From: a virus
Virus record (IMG/VR): IMGVR_UViG_3300020478_000061
Coordinates: 1-25,179 of that record
Direction: 5' to 3' (one strand)
Length of the DNA: 25,179 nt
Part shown: piece by piece, positions 10,518 to 23,198 of the stretch
Numbering within the stretch: the first letter of the stretch is position 1
Layout of the letters: each line of letters opens with the position of its first letter
Notes under the pieces: generated by a model
Databases searched by the model: none
What the model was told of the DNA's origin: nothing
The model's input: only the letters and a program-made list of their open reading frames with translations
Translations under genes and position numbers: made by a program

Positions 10518-12232
10518 TTGTCTTTGAAAAGATCCGTTGGAAAAACTTCCTATCAACAGGGAACCAATTTACAGAACTCGGATTGAATCAAATTGATAGT
10601 ACTCTAGTAGTAGGGTGCAACGGTGCTGGCAAGTCCACTATGCTGGATGCTTTGTGCTTTTGTCTTTTTAATAAACCATTTAGAAAGGTTAGTAAGGGTC
10701 TACTTGTTAACAGTGTCAATGAGAAAGACACCTTAGTAGAACTAGAATTTACTATAGGTACAATAGAGTATAAGGTAATACGTGGAATTAAACCTGCTAA
10801 GTTTGAGATCTATCGTCAAGGAATACTACTAGATCAGGATGCTGCTAATAGAGACTACCAGAAATACCTTGAGCAAAGCATATTAAAATTAAACTTTAAG
10901 TCATTTACACAGGTGGTCATACTAGGGAGTAGTACATTTGTTCCCTTTATGCAACTTCCTGCTGGACATAGAAGAGAAGTTGTAGAAGATATACTAGACA
11001 TACAAGTCTTTTCTCATATGAATATGCTCCTGAAGGAGCGTATTAAAGATAACAATGAGTCTCTAAGAGACTGTAAATATGAATTACAGATTGCTGATGA
11101 AAGAATTATCTCTCAGTGTAAGACTCTGAATAGTTTAACATCAGTCAATGATAAGAGAATAGAATTACAGCAGGGACAGTTTGATATTAATGAGGAGAGA
11201 ATGAAAGATGTACAGAAGAAGAGAGCGAAGATAGAGAAGCAGATTGATAACCTTGCTGATTCTGAGAAGGAGTTTGACTCACTAGAGAAACAGTACAGTA
11301 AGATAAAGGATCTACGTTCTAAACTACAAGGTAAACTTGAGAGAACTACTAAAGACTTTGAGTTCTTCCAAGATAATTCTTCTTGTCCTATGTGTACTCA
11401 GGATATTGAAGAATCATTTAGAACTATGAAGATAGGTATCCTAGGTAGAAAGAAGGATGATGTACTGGATGCCACGGAACAATTAAAGGAACAGTTGGTA
11501 GAACTACGGGCTAATATGGCTCTTATGAAAGATAACCACGAGTCTGTGATGGAGTATAGGTTTGAAGTTCAGTCTCTTATAAAAGAAGAACAGAGATTGA
11601 TGAAGACTAATACTGATATATTATCTCTGTTAAAAGATCTAAGTAACCAACCTGAGATCGCTGGTGTACAGGAGGAGTTGGAGAGATTAAGAAAGGAGTA
11701 TGATGATAAGGAGTCTGCTTGTGCTGAGGTTAATAAGATGGCTCAAGATTATAAGCTGGCTGGTACCCTATTAAAGGATGGTGGTATCAAGGCAAAGATT
11801 ATTTCAAAGTATATCCCTATTATAAACCAGTCCATCAACAGAAACCTATCTGCTATGGACACATATATTAACTTCACACTTGACGAGGAGTTCCAAGAGG
11901 TTATAAAATCTAGGTATCGTGATAAGTTTTCGTATGCTTCCTTCTCTGAAGGTGAGAAGCAAAAGATTGACCTAGCTTTACTCTTTACTTGGAGACACGT
12001 TGCTAAGTTAAAGAATTCTGTCAGGACTAACATCCTTATACTAGATGAGGTATTCGATTCTTCACTAGATACTACAGCTACTGAGGAACTACTTAAGATC
12101 CTTAAAGGTATGAGTAAGGAAACTAATCTATTTGTTATATCACACAAGGGTGAGATACTAGCAGAGAAGTTCAGTCGTACACTAAGGTTTGGTAAAGTAA
12201 ATGGTTTCTCTAAGATTATAGAAGATGTTTGA
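10514..12232 (+). CDS. 46: Recombination endonuclease ATPase subunit gp46 (Rad50/SbcC type)
   Basis: The 572-residue product is the SMC-like ATPase partner of gp47. Domain order: Walker A GCNGAGKS (34-41), a long coiled-coil arm, zinc hook CPMC (Cys291-Cys294) at its tip, a returning coiled coil, ABC signature ASFSEGEKQKIDLALL (about 475-490), Walker B ILILDEVFDSS (about 505-515) and the late His in ISHKGE. All expected elements are present and the length matches T4 gp46 (560). The start overlaps the preceding stop (ATGA), and its 3' end overlaps the following oxygenase gene by 8 bases. Confidence 0.96.
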   Translation: MIVFEKIRWKNFLSTGNQFTELGLNQIDSTLVVGCNGAGKSTMLDALCFCLFNKPFRKVSKGLLVNSVNEKDTLVELEFTIGTIEYKVIRGIKPAKFEIYRQGILLDQDAANRDYQKYLEQSILKLNFKSFTQVVILGSSTFVPFMQLPAGHRREVVEDILDIQVFSHMNMLLKERIKDNNESLRDCKYELQIADERIISQCKTLNSLTSVNDKRIELQQGQFDINEERMKDVQKKRAKIEKQIDNLADSEKEFDSLEKQYSKIKDLRSKLQGKLERTTKDFEFFQDNSSCPMCTQDIEESFRTMKIGILGRKKDDVLDATEQLKEQLVELRANMALMKDNHESVMEYRFEVQSLIKEEQRLMKTNTDILSLLKDLSNQPEIAGVQEELERLRKEYDDKESACAEVNKMAQDYKLAGTLLKDGGIKAKIISKYIPIINQSINRNLSAMDTYINFTLDEEFQEVIKSRYRDKFSYASFSEGEKQKIDLALLFTWRHVAKLKNSVRTNILILDEVFDSSLDTTATEELLKILKGMSKETNLFVISHKGEILAEKFSRTLRFGKVNGFSKIIEDV

Positions 12233-12794
12233 CACTCCTTATTACAGAGATTTTAAAACCTTTAAAGAACACGAGATGTTTAAGGAGAACTTACTCTCTC
12301 GTAGACACGAGTTCTGTGTGTTTGATAATATATTTTATGGTAAAGGATATTCTACTATAGGATCACAAGAGAATTTACATAAGGAGTACCCATACTTTAC
12401 TGATTATATAATGGGTGCTATGAGGGAGTATGATGATAAGTTAAAGGTTACTAGGATGTGGGTTAACATCAATCCTACAGGTGCATACCAGACTAGACAC
12501 AACCACGCTGACTCAGATTTTGCAGGTACCTATTACCTACAGGTTCCAGAGGAGGACTCAGGTTCTATCCAGTTCTATAATCCATCACCAGTGGTGGAAG
12601 CAATGCATAGGATGAGACCCTACCATAACTTCACTCATATGCATATCCCTACTGAGACAGACCTATTAATATGGCCAGGTTTCCTAGATCACGAGGTGAT
12701 GTATAACCATTGTAAGGAGGAACGGTGGACAGTTTCTTTTCTGATGTCCTTGACAGACGAAGACAGACGTGATAGATTTCCTGGTATGATATAA
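12225..12794 (+). CDS. Putative 2OG-Fe(II) oxygenase
   Basis: A 189-residue double-stranded beta-helix protein of the phage 2-oxoglutarate/Fe(II) dioxygenase type. The metal site region is TRHNHADSDFAGTYYLQVP, with His92, His94 and Asp96 giving an HxD pair at 94-96 (or an HxH at 92-94). The distal ligand is His156 in FLDHEV, and Arg167 in ERWTV probably binds the 2-oxoglutarate carboxylate. The GTYYLQVP...GSIQFYNP pattern places it near the TIGR02466-like family. The substrate is unknown; such enzymes are abundant in cyanophages. It overlaps gene 46 by 8 bases, and its stop lies inside the late promoter at 12790. Confidence 0.85.
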   Translation: MFDTPYYRDFKTFKEHEMFKENLLSRRHEFCVFDNIFYGKGYSTIGSQENLHKEYPYFTDYIMGAMREYDDKLKVTRMWVNINPTGAYQTRHNHADSDFAGTYYLQVPEEDSGSIQFYNPSPVVEAMHRMRPYHNFTHMHIPTETDLLIWPGFLDHEVMYNHCKEERWTVSFLMSLTDEDRRDRFPGMI

Positions 12795-17255: not shown

Positions 17256-17933
17256 ATGACCCAAGTTAAACTCACCAAGGAAACCTTCAACACACTTAAG
17301 AACTTTGCAACTATCAACAAATCAGTGGTTATCGATACAGGGTCTAAGATCCGTACGATATCTATTAACAAAAACATATATGCTTCTGCTGAAGTTTCCG
17401 AAGAGTTTCCTTCACAAGTCCCGATTTACGACTTGGGTGTATTTCTCTCTGGTCTCTCACTCTTTGAGCAACCTATCTTCGATTTCTCAAACGATAGTAA
17501 ACTTGTCGTCAGAGACGAAACAAAGTCCCACTTCACAAACTTCACGTACAGTGACCCATCATTAATTGTACAACCACCAGATAAGGAGATCACCTTACCA
17601 TCTGTGGACGTTGAGTTTATTTTAAAACCAGCAGTGCTGGATAAACTCTTACGTGCTTCTAGTGTGTATCAGGTACCTGATCTATGCTTGTATACTAAGG
17701 AAGGGGATATGTTACTGAAGGTATGTGACAAGAAAAATGATACTGCTAATAGTTTTGAGGTTCCTGTAGGTAAATCAGATGATACATTTTGCTACTGTTT
17801 CAAGGTAGAGAATCTTCGTCTGCAACCTGAGGAGTATAATGTACAAATATCAGGTGCACGTATAGCACGATTCGTTTCTACAAACGAAAGACACCTTGAG
17901 TACTTTATAGCACTGGAGCCTGATTCTAAATGA
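17256..17933 (+). CDS. 45: Sliding clamp gp45
   Basis: The 225-residue product is the trimeric DNA polymerase processivity clamp, also the mobile activator of late transcription through gp55. Length matches T4 gp45 (228). Recognisable segments are the N-terminal VKLTKETFNTLKNFATIN, the FPSQVPIYDLGVFLSGLSLF stretch, FILKPAVLDKLLRASSVYQV and a C-terminal YFIALEPDSK. The order 45-44 is as in T4. Its stop overlaps the gene 44 start (ATGA at 17930-17933). Confidence 0.94.
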   Translation: MTQVKLTKETFNTLKNFATINKSVVIDTGSKIRTISINKNIYASAEVSEEFPSQVPIYDLGVFLSGLSLFEQPIFDFSNDSKLVVRDETKSHFTNFTYSDPSLIVQPPDKEITLPSVDVEFILKPAVLDKLLRASSVYQVPDLCLYTKEGDMLLKVCDKKNDTANSFEVPVGKSDDTFCYCFKVENLRLQPEEYNVQISGARIARFVSTNERHLEYFIALEPDSK

Positions 17934-18862
17934 CTTTTCTCTGGACTGAAAAATACAGACCGAAGAAAATTGATGAGTGCATCCTTCCCGATAGTCTGAA
18001 AGAAGTCTTTCAGAAATTTGTTGAGAAGGGTGAACTCCCTAATCTTCTGTTAGCAGGACCTCCTGGCATTGGTAAGACTACCGTTGCCAAGGCATTATGT
18101 AATCAGATAGGTGCAGATTTTTATCTTATAAACGGTTCGGATGAAGGGAGGTTCTTAGATACTGTACGTAATAATGCAAAGAACTTTGCTAGTACAGTAT
18201 CTCTTTCTTCTAACGCACCACACAAAGTTATTATTATTGATGAAGCAGACAACACCACGCACGATGTTCAACTCCTTCTTAGAGCGAGCATCGAAGAGTT
18301 TCAAAACAATTGTAGGTTCATCTTCACCTGTAATTACAAGAACAAAATTATCGAACCTCTTCACAGCAGATGTTCAGTGGTTGAATTCTCAGGGGGAAAT
18401 AAACAACAACTCGCTGCGTCCTTCTTCAAGAGGGTACAAGAGATCCTTGATAAAGAAAGAGTTGTCGCACCTCCTAAGGTTCTTGCGGCGTTAGTACAAA
18501 AATATTTCCCTGACTTTAGACGTACTCTTAATGAGTTACAGAGATATGCATCTAGTGGTCAGATAGATTCTGGTATCTTAGCATCAGAAGTTAATACTAA
18601 TCTAAATGATCTGGTATCTTTCCTTAAGACTAGAGAGTTTACTAAGATGAAGAAGTGGGTAGTACAGAATCTTGACAATGAACCCACACAAATAATGCGA
18701 AATATATACGATGCGTTGTACGATTATCTAAAACCTGCTAGTATACCAGAAGCAGTTCTTGTCATTGGTGAATACCAGTACAAGGCAGCGTTCGTAGCAG
18801 ACCAAGAAATTAACTTGGTTGCTTTCCTTACTGAACTTATGATGAGGTGTGAATTCAAATGA
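17930..18862 (+). CDS. 44: Clamp loader ATPase subunit gp44
   Basis: The 310-residue product is the AAA+ clamp loader large subunit that, with gp62, opens gp45 and places it on primed DNA. Motifs: N-terminal FLWTEKYRPKKIDECILP, Walker A GPPGIGKT (43-50), Walker B IIIDEAD (101-107), the RFC box SRC (146-148) and the C-terminal collar helices. Length equals T4 gp44 (319) closely. It overlaps gene 45 and the following small gene by 4 bases each. Unlike T4, gene 62 does not follow; a 3.5 kb accessory block intervenes. Confidence 0.96.
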   Translation: MTFLWTEKYRPKKIDECILPDSLKEVFQKFVEKGELPNLLLAGPPGIGKTTVAKALCNQIGADFYLINGSDEGRFLDTVRNNAKNFASTVSLSSNAPHKVIIIDEADNTTHDVQLLLRASIEEFQNNCRFIFTCNYKNKIIEPLHSRCSVVEFSGGNKQQLAASFFKRVQEILDKERVVAPPKVLAALVQKYFPDFRRTLNELQRYASSGQIDSGILASEVNTNLNDLVSFLKTREFTKMKKWVVQNLDNEPTQIMRNIYDALYDYLKPASIPEAVLVIGEYQYKAAFVADQEINLVAFLTELMMRCEFK

Positions 18863-19149
18863 AACACGCAGACCTTGATGCTCTAGACCGTCTTATGAAG
18901 GACGAGGAGGAGGTGGTTTATTCTCAAAAGGCAAACCACTATGACAAGCATACTTACCCACTGTACAAGTACCATAACAGTCCTAAATCGTGGAGTAAGA
19001 ATGGTACAGTAAGTGTACATTGTTATGAAGGTAAAGTAGAAATCAGAATCTTTGAGTCTGGTAGTATAAATGTACATAAGATTGAAATTCAATCTGATGG
19101 TCCTGTTGGTGCACGTATCACAGAGGAACTGGATCCCGTACAAGAATGA
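18859..19149 (+). CDS. 96-residue protein of unknown function after gp44
   Basis: A small protein starts MKHADLDALDRLMKDEEEVV, with an aromatic and His-rich middle (YDKHTYPLYKYHNSPKSW) and a beta-rich C-terminus (VSVHCYEGKVEIRIFESGSI). No known signature is recognised. It overlaps gene 44 by 4 bases (ATGA) and the next small gene by 4 bases, so it is co-translated with the clamp loader. It opens the accessory block between genes 44 and 62. Confidence 0.82.
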   Translation: MKHADLDALDRLMKDEEEVVYSQKANHYDKHTYPLYKYHNSPKSWSKNGTVSVHCYEGKVEIRIFESGSINVHKIEIQSDGPVGARITEELDPVQE

Positions 19150-19313
19150 AGATTACTCAAAAGATTATCGATGATCTCACTGTCGCATTGGCTCATACCA
19201 AGAAAGATGGTACTGAGAACTGGAAGGATGGTGATGAGATTGATGTGTGCTTAGGTGGTACATTTGCCAACGACAAGTTCATCTCTCTCATCAATAGATC
19301 AAAGGAAAAATGA
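19146..19313 (+). CDS. 55-residue protein of unknown function
   Basis: A 55-codon frame runs from ATG 19146 to TGA 19311-19313. The product starts MKITQKIIDDLTVALAHTKK and continues with DGTENWKDGDEIDVCLGGTF, looking like a helix and then a beta hairpin. ATGA overlaps on both sides show that it is part of the same translationally coupled chain. It is not recognised. Confidence 0.72.
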   Translation: MKITQKIIDDLTVALAHTKKDGTENWKDGDEIDVCLGGTFANDKFISLINRSKEK

Positions 19314-19891
19314 AAGTAGGATTTGTATCCCAAGAGACTCAGGACTTCTTACACGAAGTCCTTTGTCGTGACAATACATTCCCTTGGTTCTTCCAAGAAT
19401 TCACTTCCAAATATAATGGAAATGCTGAAGTGTGTCGCATCACTGGGTATGAAGAACATCCTTACTTTGCACATATAATGGCTCACGATGGTGAACCAAA
19501 GTCTGATGCATATGAAGCAGTCTTTAAGAGACTATGGGATGAGATAGATCCTACTGGGACACAACCTATCATACGTGCACGTGCTGCTAAGGTGATGAAA
19601 AATGATTATCATACACCTCCAACACAACCTCACGTAGATGCACCATTCCCTCATCACGTTATGATATATTATTGTAACGATAGTGATGGACCTACCATTC
19701 TTTATAAAGAGAAGTACAATGGTAAAACTGTAACAACCGTTACACCAAAGCAATATATAGAACCAGAGAAAGGAAAGTTTCTTATCTTCGATGGGTTAAC
19801 TTATCATTCTGGTTCTGCACCAAAGAGAAATTCTCACAGAACTATTTTGAATATTAATTTCTATGGACATCCACGAGTTCTTTCCAGTTAA
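19310..19891 (+). CDS. Putative 2OG-Fe(II) oxygenase
   Basis: A 193-residue 2-oxoglutarate/Fe(II) dioxygenase-like protein. The facial triad is clear: HVD (His108, Asp110) in QPHVDAPFPHHVMIYY, then a GPTILY strand, then His166 in GLTYHSGSAP, with Arg177 in HRTILNINFYG as the 2-oxoglutarate anchor. This is the canonical HxD...H...R layout of the phage 2OG-Fe(II) family. The substrate is unknown (protein side chain, nucleobase or small molecule). It is the first of four oxygenases in the block between genes 44 and 62 and overlaps the next gene by 29 bases. Confidence 0.87.
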   Translation: MKVGFVSQETQDFLHEVLCRDNTFPWFFQEFTSKYNGNAEVCRITGYEEHPYFAHIMAHDGEPKSDAYEAVFKRLWDEIDPTGTQPIIRARAAKVMKNDYHTPPTQPHVDAPFPHHVMIYYCNDSDGPTILYKEKYNGKTVTTVTPKQYIEPEKGKFLIFDGLTYHSGSAPKRNSHRTILNINFYGHPRVLSS

Positions 19892-20471
19892 ATTCTATAC
19901 CTTTGATAATCCTGAACTAGCAGAACCTATGCTAGAGGCATTACAGGGGGAACAGAGGAGTCTATTTAACCTACCTAATATGGTAGAGACTACTAAAGGT
20001 AATCTGCATACTCTTCCTGAGTTTGAACCTTTAACTAACTGGATAGAAGAATGTCTAGAAGAGATTAAAAAGGAAAACCAATATCAGATGGAAGGTAAGT
20101 TCCAAGTATCTTTGATGTGGGGTAATGTATCAGGACCTGATATGGGTGGGTGTCATCAAGCACACCGTCATCCTTTTGCATATTATTCTGGTATATACTA
20201 TCTTACTACAGGGTCACCAACGATCTTCCAGGATCCTCTTACACCTCGTACGATGAATCAATTGGAGATCATTAGTAAGACCTATGAAAATGCCATAGCC
20301 ATAGAGCCTCAGGTAGGTCAGTTAATCATCTTCCCAAGTTGGATGGTTCATTGGTCTGTACCACACCACGGAGATAAATTAAGAGCAGGTATTGCTTGGA
20401 ATGCTTTACCTGTAGGTGGTGTAAACTTCGGACCTTATGGTCAGAATATGGTAGACTTGGAATTAAAGTAA
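19863..20471 (+). CDS. Putative 2OG-Fe(II) oxygenase, TIGR02466-like
   Basis: A 202-residue protein with the TIGR02466/2OG-FeII_Oxy_5 look: an EFFPVKFYTFDNPEL start, then a metal region HQAHRHPFAYYSGIYYLT (His98, His101, His103) and a TIFQDPLTPRT strand. The distal motif FPSWMVHWSVPHH has His163, and Arg174 in KLRAGIAWN is the likely cofactor anchor. The canonical Asp of HxD is not visible; HxH takes its place, as I recall for this family, so the exact metal ligands are uncertain. It overlaps the previous gene by 29 bases and the next by 1 base (TAATG). Confidence 0.82.
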   Translation: MDIHEFFPVKFYTFDNPELAEPMLEALQGEQRSLFNLPNMVETTKGNLHTLPEFEPLTNWIEECLEEIKKENQYQMEGKFQVSLMWGNVSGPDMGGCHQAHRHPFAYYSGIYYLTTGSPTIFQDPLTPRTMNQLEIISKTYENAIAIEPQVGQLIIFPSWMVHWSVPHHGDKLRAGIAWNALPVGGVNFGPYGQNMVDLELK

Positions 20472-21016
20472 TGTTACTTTCGCCATTCGGACCTGTTTTG
20501 TTTAAGAGTACTCTTCCTGAGAAGTATAGGAAAGCACTATTAGATGAAGCTTATCTCTGTAAGGATGATGCTTCACCTATTTTAGTCGGACAGATTGAGG
20601 AGCAACTTTATATTTACCCTGATGAAAGGTTGATGAAACCATTATACTATGGGTTGAGAGAGTATTTGAAGGAGGAATATAATGGTAACTTTGAAGTCAA
20701 ACCTATGTGGGTTAACTTCCAACAAGCAGGTGACTGGCAACCAGTCCATAACCACGATGGAGATTTTAGTTTTGTTATTTATCTAGATGTACCAGAGGGT
20801 ATATATGATGAACCAGAAGCAGCAGGTTCAATCTATTTTACCTATGGTGAGAAGCAACCACATTCAAATAGTGTATTCGGACCAGTCAAACCAGAGAAGG
20901 GTGACTTCTGGATCTTCCCTTCGTGGATGAATCATTATGTGTATCCCTTCAAATCTTCTGGACAACGCATATCAATGTCTGGTAACATACATATGTACCT
21001 TGAGGGATCTTATTGA
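20471..21016 (+). CDS. Putative 2OG-Fe(II) oxygenase, TIGR02466-like
   Basis: A 181-residue protein starting at ATG 20471 (one-base overlap with the previous stop); a longer frame from 20396 is a read-back into the upstream gene and is not used. Motifs: KPMWVNFQQAGDWQPVHNHD with His93 and His95, then Asp96/Asp98, the strand FVIYLDVPEG, the distal site FPSWMNHYVYPF with His155, and Arg166 in GQRISMSGNIH. It resembles the oxygenase at 12225 and the one just upstream, so the three may be paralogues. The substrate is unknown. Confidence 0.82.
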   Translation: MLLSPFGPVLFKSTLPEKYRKALLDEAYLCKDDASPILVGQIEEQLYIYPDERLMKPLYYGLREYLKEEYNGNFEVKPMWVNFQQAGDWQPVHNHDGDFSFVIYLDVPEGIYDEPEAAGSIYFTYGEKQPHSNSVFGPVKPEKGDFWIFPSWMNHYVYPFKSSGQRISMSGNIHMYLEGSY

Positions 21017-21855
21017 TGGTTAAATTGAAAACCCCTCTTCGTTATCCTGGAGGTAAATCTAGGGTAGCGGTACGGTTGTCAGAACAGATACCAAATAATA
21101 TAACTGAGTATCGTGATCCATTTATGGGTGGCGGTTCTATGGCACTACAGGTTAGTACAAAGTATCCTGAGATACCAATATGGGTTAATGATAAATATTG
21201 GCAACTGTATAATTTCTGGGGTCAACTTCAATCCTATGGTGAAGAACTATCTGATACTCTAAATGAATACAAACTAAAGTATCCTAACCCAGAGAAAGCA
21301 CAGAAGTTATTCAAGGATTGTAAGGAAAATATTAGCGAACAAGATGACTTTACATCTGCTGTATATTTTTGGATACTTAACAAGTGTTCCTACAGTGGAC
21401 TAACAGAGAACTCATCATTCTCTCCTCAAGCATCTGATAATAATTTTACCTTAAGAGGTATTGAAAACTTAAAAGAATACCAGAAGTTAATACAGCATTG
21501 GAAGATAACCAATGAGGATTATTCAGTTTTACTAGAGGCTAAAGGTTCTAAAGATTCATTCATCTTTTTAGATCCACCATATGACATAAAGGATTTTCTT
21601 TATGGTAAGAAAGGTGGTATGCATAAAGGGTTTGATCATAAGAAATTTGCTCAGGATTGTGACCGTTGTGTACACAACTGGATGATCACATATAATATAA
21701 ATGATAACATCAAAACATTGTTTGAGGATTATCACCAAGAAGAGTTTGGTATCACGTATGGTATGCAACACCGTGCTGATAATACTAGGAAGAAAGAACT
21801 TCTTATAACAAACTACGATCCAATACCGACTGCAGTCGAGGAACTATTTGTATGA
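21016..21855 (+). CDS. dam: DNA adenine N6-methyltransferase, Dam/D12 class
   Basis: A 279-residue D12-class N6-adenine DNA methyltransferase. Visible motifs: RYPGGK (9-14, AdoMet-binding motif X), DPFMGGG (34-40, motif I), VND (57-59) and the catalytic DPPYD (186-190, motif IV). An NKCSYSGLTENSSFSP stretch (122-137) matches the family's conserved N-x-C...G block. Length agrees with Dam (T4 259, E. coli 278). ATG 21016 shares its A with the previous stop; a TTG at 21013 is a weaker alternative. The recognition site is not provable from sequence; GATC is the default guess. It is the only methyltransferase here and has no restriction partner, so protection or timing of phage DNA is likely. Confidence 0.9.
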   Translation: MVKLKTPLRYPGGKSRVAVRLSEQIPNNITEYRDPFMGGGSMALQVSTKYPEIPIWVNDKYWQLYNFWGQLQSYGEELSDTLNEYKLKYPNPEKAQKLFKDCKENISEQDDFTSAVYFWILNKCSYSGLTENSSFSPQASDNNFTLRGIENLKEYQKLIQHWKITNEDYSVLLEAKGSKDSFIFLDPPYDIKDFLYGKKGGMHKGFDHKKFAQDCDRCVHNWMITYNINDNIKTLFEDYHQEEFGITYGMQHRADNTRKKELLITNYDPIPTAVEELFV

Positions 21856-22373
21856 TTGAGATCATTGATGATTTATTCCCACCCAAATTAGTATCAAGAG
21901 GGTTCTACTACCTAGAGACATATCCTAATTGGGATTTTCTTGCTGATAGTCCAGACAGTTCTGAAGCATATACCTTAGGTAAGTGTTTTGAGAATGATGA
22001 CTATGAGGATATTGCTAAAGAGTTTATGGGGTATATGGACAGACAAGATTTTAGAAGAGTATTATACAATGCTTTTCAGTCTAGTGATTGTCCTAAACCA
22101 CACGTAGATTCACAGTCACCTAAGGGGTTTACCTATATGATATACCTTAATCCTGACTGGGATGTATCTATGGGTGGTGAAACAATATTTGTTGATGAAC
22201 CTACAGGTGAAATTATAAAGTCTGTAGTACCTAAGCGTGGTAGATTGGTTAAGTTCACTTCTGAAATACCACACTCTGCTAGACCTCCCTTGCGTGATGC
22301 TATGAGAAAGAGGTATAGTATGGTATTCCAAACACATCCTATAGGATTAGAAACCCTAGGTGATTTATTATGA
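21852..22373 (+). CDS. Putative 2OG-Fe(II) oxygenase, prolyl-hydroxylase-like
   Basis: A 173-residue protein with the P4H-like dioxygenase core: HVD (His84, Asp86) in KPHVDSQSPKGFTYMIYLNP, the GGETIFVDEP strand, the SVVPKRGRLVKF strand, the distal His141 in EIPHSARPP, and Arg154 in KRYSMVFQ. This subclass is close to prolyl 4-hydroxylase/PF13640-type proteins and is clearly different from the TIGR02466-like ones upstream. It overlaps dam and gene 62 by 4 bases each (ATGA). The substrate is unknown. Confidence 0.87.
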   Translation: MIEIIDDLFPPKLVSRGFYYLETYPNWDFLADSPDSSEAYTLGKCFENDDYEDIAKEFMGYMDRQDFRRVLYNAFQSSDCPKPHVDSQSPKGFTYMIYLNPDWDVSMGGETIFVDEPTGEIIKSVVPKRGRLVKFTSEIPHSARPPLRDAMRKRYSMVFQTHPIGLETLGDLL

Positions 22374-22774
22374 GCATCCGTGACCAGTATCCTTTAAAAG
22401 ATTATCTTAACTCAGTAAATTTTAATAAGGAGAATCTCTTAGAGCGTGATGGTGATTGGGGTAAACATTATCCACCATATGTTGTCAACAAATGTTTGAG
22501 TGGGTTTATGGATACTGTAATCTATTCTAATGAAATGAATAGATTATATAATTTAGATAAAGATCTCCAGTATTCTTTTTATCTAAATAGTTTGCGTAAG
22601 AAAAAACGTTTCTCTCCTTGGCAGAGAAAAGAAAAGATTCAAGATCTTGAAGTCATCAAACAGTACTTTCAGTACTCAGATGAGAAAGCCAAAGATGCGT
22701 TACGTATTCTCACAAAAAATCAAATTGAATTGATTAAATCTAAATTGAATACTGGAGGATACAATGATGGTTGA
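22370..22774 (+). CDS. 62: Clamp loader small subunit gp62
   Basis: A 134-residue protein matching the cyanophage form of gp62, the non-ATPase clamp loader subunit that forms a 4:1 complex with gp44. Segments remembered from this family are PPYVVNKCLSGFMDTVIYSN and FYLNSLRKKKRFSPWQRKEK. T4 gp62 is longer (187), but cyanophage versions are short. Its position immediately before regA agrees with T4 (44-62-regA). The separation from gene 44 by about 3.5 kb is the oddity. It overlaps regA by 11 bases. Confidence 0.88.
   Translation: MSIRDQYPLKDYLNSVNFNKENLLERDGDWGKHYPPYVVNKCLSGFMDTVIYSNEMNRLYNLDKDLQYSFYLNSLRKKKRFSPWQRKEKIQDLEVIKQYFQYSDEKAKDALRILTKNQIELIKSKLNTGGYNDG
22754..22758 (+). promoter_or_regulatory. 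Shine-Dalgarno for the upstream regA start
   Basis: GGAGG lies 5 bases before ATG 22764 (8 before ATG 22767), inside the end of gene 62. It favours the longer RegA form over the start at 22806/22809. Confidence 0.65.
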
Positions 22775-23198
22775 GCGAGTCGCAGAAATTGCGTGGTCTC
22801 CTGAGATGATGGTTGAGGTTACTCTACGACAACCAGATGATTTTTTAAAAGTGAGAGAAACACTAACAAGAATTGGAGTTGCTTCTCGAAAAGAAAAGAA
22901 ATTATTTCAGTCTTGTCACATACTTCATAAGAAAGGTAAGTATTATATTGTACATTTCAAAGAGTTGTTTGCGTTAGATGGTAAGCACGCTAACCTAACA
23001 TCGAATGATGTACAACGTCGTAATAGAATTACTAAGTTATTATCTGACTGGGGACTTGTTTCTATATGTGAAGATAACCACATAGATGACATTGCACCAT
23101 TGAATCAGATCAAAGTAATTGCCTTTAAAGATAAGAGTGATTGGATATTAGAATCAAAATATAATATAGGTAAGAAGAAACAGCCAGTTGAAGGCTAA
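22764..23198 (+). CDS. regA: Translational repressor RegA
   Basis: The product (144 residues from 22764) is the T4-type RNA-binding repressor that blocks ribosome access to start regions of early mRNAs. The conserved block begins at residue ~16: MVEVTLRQPDDFLKVRETLT, then FQSCHILHKKGKYYIVHFKE, nearly identical to T4 RegA. T4 RegA (122 residues) would start at the ATG equivalent to 22809, so this phage carries about 14-15 extra N-terminal residues. The strong GGAGG supports the upstream start. The bases ATGATGGTTGAG occur at both starts (22764 and 22806). Autogenous control at this duplicated site is plausible. Its stop lies in a late promoter-like box. Confidence 0.94.
   Translation: MMVERVAEIAWSPEMMVEVTLRQPDDFLKVRETLTRIGVASRKEKKLFQSCHILHKKGKYYIVHFKELFALDGKHANLTSNDVQRRNRITKLLSDWGLVSICEDNHIDDIAPLNQIKVIAFKDKSDWILESKYNIGKKKQPVEG

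Follow-up and report, generated by a model that had tools for sequence, protein, structure and literature searches.

A cargo slot between the clamp loader genes 44 and 62 of cyanophages that holds an oxygenase-dam gene pair and its probably enlarged five-gene form

Genes between the clamp loader genes 44 and 62

The IMG/VR virus record IMGVR_UViG_3300020478_000061 (25,179 bp, the whole of which is called the window here) carries seven tightly coupled genes between the clamp loader genes gp44 and gp62, in the order orfA, orfB, OG1, OG2, OG3, dam and OG4. These are two small genes, four genes for 2-oxoglutarate (2OG)-Fe(II) oxygenases (OG1 to OG4) and a gene for a D12 methyltransferase (dam), all at the place where a first-pass annotation, made from the sequence, had put them. 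The right half of the window reads cobT, cobS, gp45, gp44, the seven genes, gp62, regA and, later, a gene for haem oxygenase, which is a sign of a cyanophage. In phage T4 genes 44 and 62 are separated by 1 bp, which agrees with the earlier statement that they follow each other without a gap. The features of the locus, with positions in the window and the open reading frame (ORF) or family evidence for each, are as follows:

17256..17933, + strand: gp45, sliding clamp, upstream anchor of the operon (ORF; upstream of gp44 in relatives too)
17930..18862, + strand: gp44, clamp loader large subunit (ORF; 94% to closest relatives)
18859..19149, + strand: orfA, 96 aa, without family match; found with the block in the closest relatives only
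19146..19313, + strand: orfB, 55 aa (weak phrog_475 match; 98% identity in close relatives)
19310..19891, + strand: OG1, 2OG-Fe(II) oxygenase, PHD/P4H-like (phrog_274, alignment, AlphaFold model, structural matches)
19863..20471, + strand: OG2, PF13759/TIGR02466 oxygenase (profiles, alignment, tree, structure match)
20471..21016, + strand: OG3, PF13759 oxygenase of a lineage other than OG2 (profile, alignment, tree)
21016..21855, + strand: dam, predicted D12 adenine-N6 methyltransferase, orphan (PF02086, phrog_56, motifs, PADLOC, solved relatives)
21852..22373, + strand: OG4, PF13640 oxygenase, P4H/PHD-like (profile, alignment, solved relatives)
22370..22774, + strand: gp62, clamp loader small subunit (PF16790, phrog_225)
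22764..23198, + strand: regA, translational repressor, downstream anchor (PF01818, 7e-46)

The starts of OG3 and dam were taken as the ATG codons at 20471 and 21016, where a mechanical ORF list had placed upstream TTG codons. Read directly, five junctions (44/orfA, orfA/orfB, orfB/OG1, dam/OG4 and OG4/62) are 4-nt ATGA overlaps, OG2/OG3 and OG3/dam overlap by 1 nt, and OG1/OG2 is the single longer overlap, of 29 nt. The claim that nearly all of these genes are joined by overlaps of 1-4 nt is borne out, OG1/OG2 being the exception. As these overlaps link the block to 44 and 62, all of these genes are probably expressed from one transcript, in line with the tie to the replication transcript proposed earlier. 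When compared with two close relatives, every gene of the window is under purifying selection, with ratios of nonsynonymous to synonymous substitutions (dN/dS) of 0.02-0.26. A near-identity DNA search of phages gave a match of 50 bp at most.

The 44-62 interval as a cargo slot and the OG2 lineage beside dam

To describe the interval in other phages, 49 IMG/VR loci were picked solely by their gp62 relative (among L003-L080 of the comparison loci, which carry L numbers). The gap between 44 and 62 measured 399-4205 bp and was never empty; it held Dam in 22 loci, a DruA-family protein in 23, neither in 4 and both in none (p = 4e-10 for exclusivity over the 49 loci, kinship uncorrected). About nine switches between Dam and DruA in the slot were counted on a gp44 tree, and four independent pairs stood on well-supported branches. 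Because the interval is never empty and its content alternates, the 44-62 interval of cyanomyoviruses is a cargo slot. The window shows the same pattern, with inserted genes between gp44 and gp62 and with 45, 44, 62 and regA as flanks. The splitting of 44 and 62 by the block, to which the first-pass annotation had drawn attention, is therefore confirmed but is not novel, as Dam in this gap is a common cyanophage arrangement, also among cultured cyanophages.

The DruA-family protein of the slot has about 370 aa and matches PF14236 and phrog_19197 (for example L058:1693-2811, L061:6940-8000 and L092:4937-5995). The GNAT superfamily includes Mom of phage Mu, an adenine modifier. A GNAT-like character has been ascribed to the DruA domain (PF14236, previously DUF4338; PMC10853773), and DruA-like proteins of Synechococcus phages were noted earlier (PMC12774648). 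By analogy, the slot DruA might be an alternative DNA-protecting enzyme, and the alternation of Dam and DruA suggests a single recurrent need behind the slot, perhaps the protection of replicating DNA. Further cargo was recognised by eye as phosphoribosyltransferase-like, desaturase-like and glycosyltransferase-like ORFs, in addition to peptide deformylase and pcyA; examples of these, other than the glycosyltransferase-like kind, are L044:3807-4322, L058:914-1696, L231:2382-2849 and L087:6845-7543. Another small protein of about 79 aa, distinct from orfA and orfB, occurs in 37 of the 49 surveyed slots. No description of the 44-62 slot, of the Dam-OG2 pair or of the Dam/DruA alternation was found in the open-access literature, and the hot-spot list of Sullivan et al. 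is without the 44-62 slot (PMC3037559).

As a class, the 2OG oxygenases of the slot are not significantly tied to Dam. They were present in 6 of 22 Dam slots versus 3 of 23 DruA slots (for instance L047 and L048), a difference that is not significant (p = 0.28, or p = 0.69 with near-identical contigs merged). Complete cyanophages have 3-12 PF13759 and 3-13 PF13640 matches genome-wide and at most one dam; 24 2OG genes are known from S-SCSM1 (PMC9602691), and those of S-SZBM1 were reported as scattered (PMC9146016). Scattered oxygenases without linkage to dam, named beforehand as an argument against a joint modification system, are thus what is seen for the superfamily as a whole but not for the lineage of OG2.

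A tree was built from 73 PF13759 proteins, among them further copies from the genomes concerned. In it the slot OG2 copies formed one clade (support of 85, or 95 with one long outside branch, in the Shimodaira-Hasegawa-like approximate likelihood ratio test, SH-aLRT) that is separate from the remaining PF13759 copies of these genomes. Wherever the contig was long enough, all slot copies detected by an OG2 profile search were followed by dam. OG2 was present in the slot in 47 distinct gp44 backgrounds, the window included, accompanied by dam in 47/47 and by DruA in 0/47. The window has this Dam-OG2 pair as well: its PF13759 gene that belongs to the slot clade lies upstream of dam, with OG3 in between. 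Five cultured phages, S-WAM1, P-RSM6, P-TIM40, S-SZBM1 and S-H38, also have OG2-dam in the slot. These data establish OG2 as a persistent positional partner of dam. A weak PF13759 hit next to DruA in L074 was ruled out as a member of the OG2 lineage by its score.

Outside the slot, OG2 relatives (L256, L275) have another 2OG oxygenase and tryptophan halogenases as neighbours in one run of genes and no DNA-modifying genes beside them. This run of a PF13640 oxygenase and halogenases (L256:3372-8559, L275:3423-8597) adjoins large ORFs of the opposite strand, perhaps structural, and the two kinds of enzyme may act jointly to hydroxylate and halogenate a single target.

The order OG1-OG2-OG3-dam-OG4 is kept in about 21 distinct IMG/VR contigs from uncultivated cyanophages, as brought out by the comparison with other cyanomyoviruses that had been suggested earlier. 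Five of these contigs are close relatives (80-98% identity) and the remainder share about 50-73%; in the latter, orfA and orfB are not recognisable. As the order recurs in so many contigs and dN/dS is low throughout, the cassette is not a product of chance. A photosystem reaction-centre gene is present on one of its contigs, indicating that the group infects cyanobacteria. The carriers of all five genes are confined to one part of the gp44 tree.

OG1, OG3 and OG4 look like additions to an older OG2-dam pair. Relatives of all three are also located outside the slot, and in one case (L132:554-2184) a gene related to OG4 (about 54%) overlaps nrdB, for the small subunit of ribonucleotide reductase, at the end of the latter, evidence that OG4 need not accompany dam; in L231 an OG4 relative lies between OG2 and dam. 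A fifth 2OG gene of the window, OG5 (PF13759, a lineage of its own), is located at 12225-12794 directly after gp46, and in relatives it is upstream of cobT too. That OG2 and OG3, or the block, arose by recent tandem duplication was rejected, as OG3 and OG5 are separate lineages in the tree; OG1 and OG4 match another Pfam family. The small proteins orfA and orfB (18859-19313) are without a family and, in the closest relatives, strongly constrained by purifying selection (dN/dS 0.05-0.07 for orfA); for orfA, no match was obtained in Pfam, PHROG, PADLOC or NCBIfam.

Families, predicted active sites and folds

In Pfam, OG2 and OG3 matched PF13759 (5e-15 and 5e-17) and OG4 matched PF13640 (1e-10), all above cut-offs, whereas the Pfam match of OG1 was weak (0.0016, below cut-off) but its match to phrog_274 was strong (2.5e-31). 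NCBIfam TIGR02466 was matched above its cut-off by OG2 and below it by OG3. By profile, and for OG1 via phrog_274 and its fold, the four proteins belong to the 2OG-Fe(II) oxygenase superfamily, and the first-pass view of four oxygenases of at least two subclasses is borne out by PF13759 (OG2, OG3), PF13640 (OG4) and phrog_274 (OG1). The label of phrog_274, 'DNA endonuclease V', is wrong, as the members tested are 2OG-Fe(II) oxygenases (PF13640, 6e-7); 'denV' of phage S-SM2 (L092:2612-3169) is such a case, and public records that carry the endonuclease V name spread this annotation error.

Alignments revealed invariant residues in each oxygenase. The arrangement HxD...H...R is kept in OG1 (H108-x-D110, H166, R177) and in OG4 (H84-x-D86, H141, R154). 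In OG2 (H101-x-H103, H163, R174) a conserved acid is absent from the usual ligand place, and OG3 has H93-x-H95, H155 and R166. A profile alignment to OG4 places H101 and H103 of OG2 on HxD, whereas a second alignment was ambiguous. HxH is also present in the solved relatives 2rg4 and 3bvc, indicating a trait of the PF13759 family. Judged from these sequences, the PF13759 proteins (OG2, OG3 and OG5) keep HxH...H in place of the HxD...H usual in 2OG oxygenases and possibly have an all-histidine iron site.

The model of OG2, with a predicted local distance difference test score (pLDDT) of 80, has 3bvc (Z 16.6) and 2rg4 (Z 16.3) as best structural matches, followed by prolyl hydroxylases and AlkB alike at Z of about 14, with ABH2 among the matches. 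Structure comparison of this model does not separate a protein from a DNA substrate, and by fold alone OG2 may have AlkB-like chemistry. The AlphaFold model of OG1 (pLDDT 83) matched, among other oxygenases, 3dkq, PHD2 and PiuC at Z of about 14 and 9-20% identity. For OG1 and OG4 the nearest solved relatives are protein hydroxylases and small-molecule oxygenases, and none of OG1-OG4 matched a TET/JBP or AlkB family in Pfam, PHROG, PADLOC or NCBIfam.

Dam matched PF02086 (4e-27, 96 bits versus a cut-off of 22), phrog_56 (1e-78) and PADLOC MTase_II/oMTase, and its motifs RYPGGKS, with the N-terminal PGGK, and DPPY, the catalytic one, are invariant in 17 sequences. It remained under the cut-off of NCBIfam 'dam' (98 versus 115 bits), and its solved relatives are 7m6b, DpnII 1 methylase and other Dam structures. 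Profiles and motifs together identify it as a predicted D12-class (Dam) adenine-N6 methyltransferase. No restriction gene was seen beside dam. GATC occurs 124 times in the window versus 137 expected, a count that is uninformative on the target of Dam.

Possible tasks of the cassette and known systems

We favour, with moderate confidence, the explanation that the cargo slot holds an old OG2-dam core, enlarged to the five-gene cassette, and that OG2 is a Dam-linked hydroxylase. The core would be dam with OG2 upstream of it, either adjoining or with one gene in between; OG1, OG3 and OG4 would have been added to this core in one group of uncultivated cyanophages, with inheritance as a block thereafter and expression together with gp44 and gp62. 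Dam would methylate adenine N6 in replicating phage DNA, for restriction protection or for marking of new DNA. OG2 would be a non-haem iron hydroxylase tied to the work of Dam, hydroxylating a protein (Dam itself, the replisome or a host protein), and OG1, OG3 and OG4 would hydroxylate further, probably protein, targets, so that the substrate of Dam need not be theirs. Judged by the neighbours of OG2 and OG4 relatives and by the fold of OG1 and OG4, which is PHD/P4H-like, bases are less likely substrates than proteins or small molecules, whereas the pairing of OG2 with Dam favours a DNA substrate; with low certainty, protein hydroxylation by OG2 appears likelier than oxidation of methyladenine. 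The earlier proposal of a joint DNA- or protein-modification module is supported in part: OG2 is a persistent partner of dam, but the combination as one module is unsupported.

Several points weigh against this explanation. The gp44 tree requires no more than one or two gains of OG2, so that the tie to dam reflects long co-inheritance and not repeated independent pairing, and independent contrasts of the association yield only 2 independent pairs. Most of the OG2 sample was gathered using OG2 itself, and the trees are quick ones with many weakly supported forks. The dam-bearing phages Syn9 and S-MS29 are without a slot OG2, and the OG2 fold matches AlkB as well, so that its substrate may be DNA.

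A possible alternative, to which we give clearly less credit, is that the oxygenases and Dam are hot-spot cargo only, neighbours without a common task whose fixed order is due to common descent. The high variety of slot cargo, the occurrence of 2OG genes genome-wide and even in DruA slots, and the position of the five-gene carriers in one part of the gp44 tree would all be expected in that case. It accounts less well for the slot OG2 being one lineage that spans far more phages than the five-gene carriers and is accompanied by dam on every contig that extends far enough, and for the close coupling of and purifying selection on all genes.

It is unlikely that one or more of the oxygenases oxidise the N6-methyladenine made by Dam, or another base, during replication, as a DNA hypermodification by which nucleases are escaped. 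The position of OG2 beside dam within a run of replication genes, the presence of AlkB and ABH2, whose substrates are methylated bases, among its structural matches and the GNAT-like nature ascribed to the slot alternative DruA are consistent with this, but the PF13759 and PF13640 families, the protein- and small-molecule-directed relatives of OG1 and OG4 and the absence of a glycosyl- or acyl-transferase partner from the block speak against it. Less probable still is a specific two-step system, in which OG2 with its HxH site would oxidise the N6-methyladenine of Dam and the added oxygenases would extend the chemistry to an undescribed base. That the enzymes mainly draw down 2-oxoglutarate and so alter NtcA signalling of the host, a role proposed for the 2OG oxygenases of cyanophages generally (PMC3037559) and restated for the phage with 24 such genes (PMC9602691), is very improbable here, since it leaves the distinct conserved lineages, the fixed order and the OG2-dam tie unexplained, and several divergent active sites, all conserved, would presumably not be needed for a mere sink.

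Few unexplained genes of cyanophages are as numerous as those for 2OG oxygenases, and according to a 2022 paper the functions of viral ones had not been specifically investigated (PMC9602691). With OG2-dam in five cultured phages, this question is narrowed to a named gene pair, strains and a readout, and cooperation of OG2 and Dam, hypothesised from their long travel side by side, is a testable case. What is added to a site and ingredients already known is a variation on them, namely the conserved larger cassette and the lineage of OG2-dam.

The cultured phages Syn9, S-MS29 and S-SCSM1 have dam of the D12 family (52-53% identity) at the same position as the window and likewise overlapping gp62 but differ in that an oxygenase is absent between 44 and 62. 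Nearer to the window are S-WAM1, P-RSM6, S-SZBM1 and S-H38 (44-2OG-dam-62) and P-TIM40 (44-2OG-2OG-dam-pcyA-62), in which a relative of the OG2 lineage (32-44% identical) is likewise upstream of dam; they have one or two PF13759 genes in place of four oxygenases of two families, and OG1, OG3 and OG4 are absent from the slot. TET/JBP and AlkB share the superfamily fold with OG1-OG4, and AlkB matches OG2 structurally, but they differ in sequence family and no hypermodification partner beyond Dam is present here. OG1 and OG4 have PHD2/EGLN, PiuC and the Pseudomonas P4H that was solved with EF-Tu as neighbours in structure or sequence and share HxD...H...R with them, although identity is low (9-20% for OG1). 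The closest solved proteins, 3bvc and 2rg4 (PF13759/TIGR02466), are both uncharacterised and share fold and family with OG2 and the family with OG3; the phage form differs from them in that it adjoins Dam.

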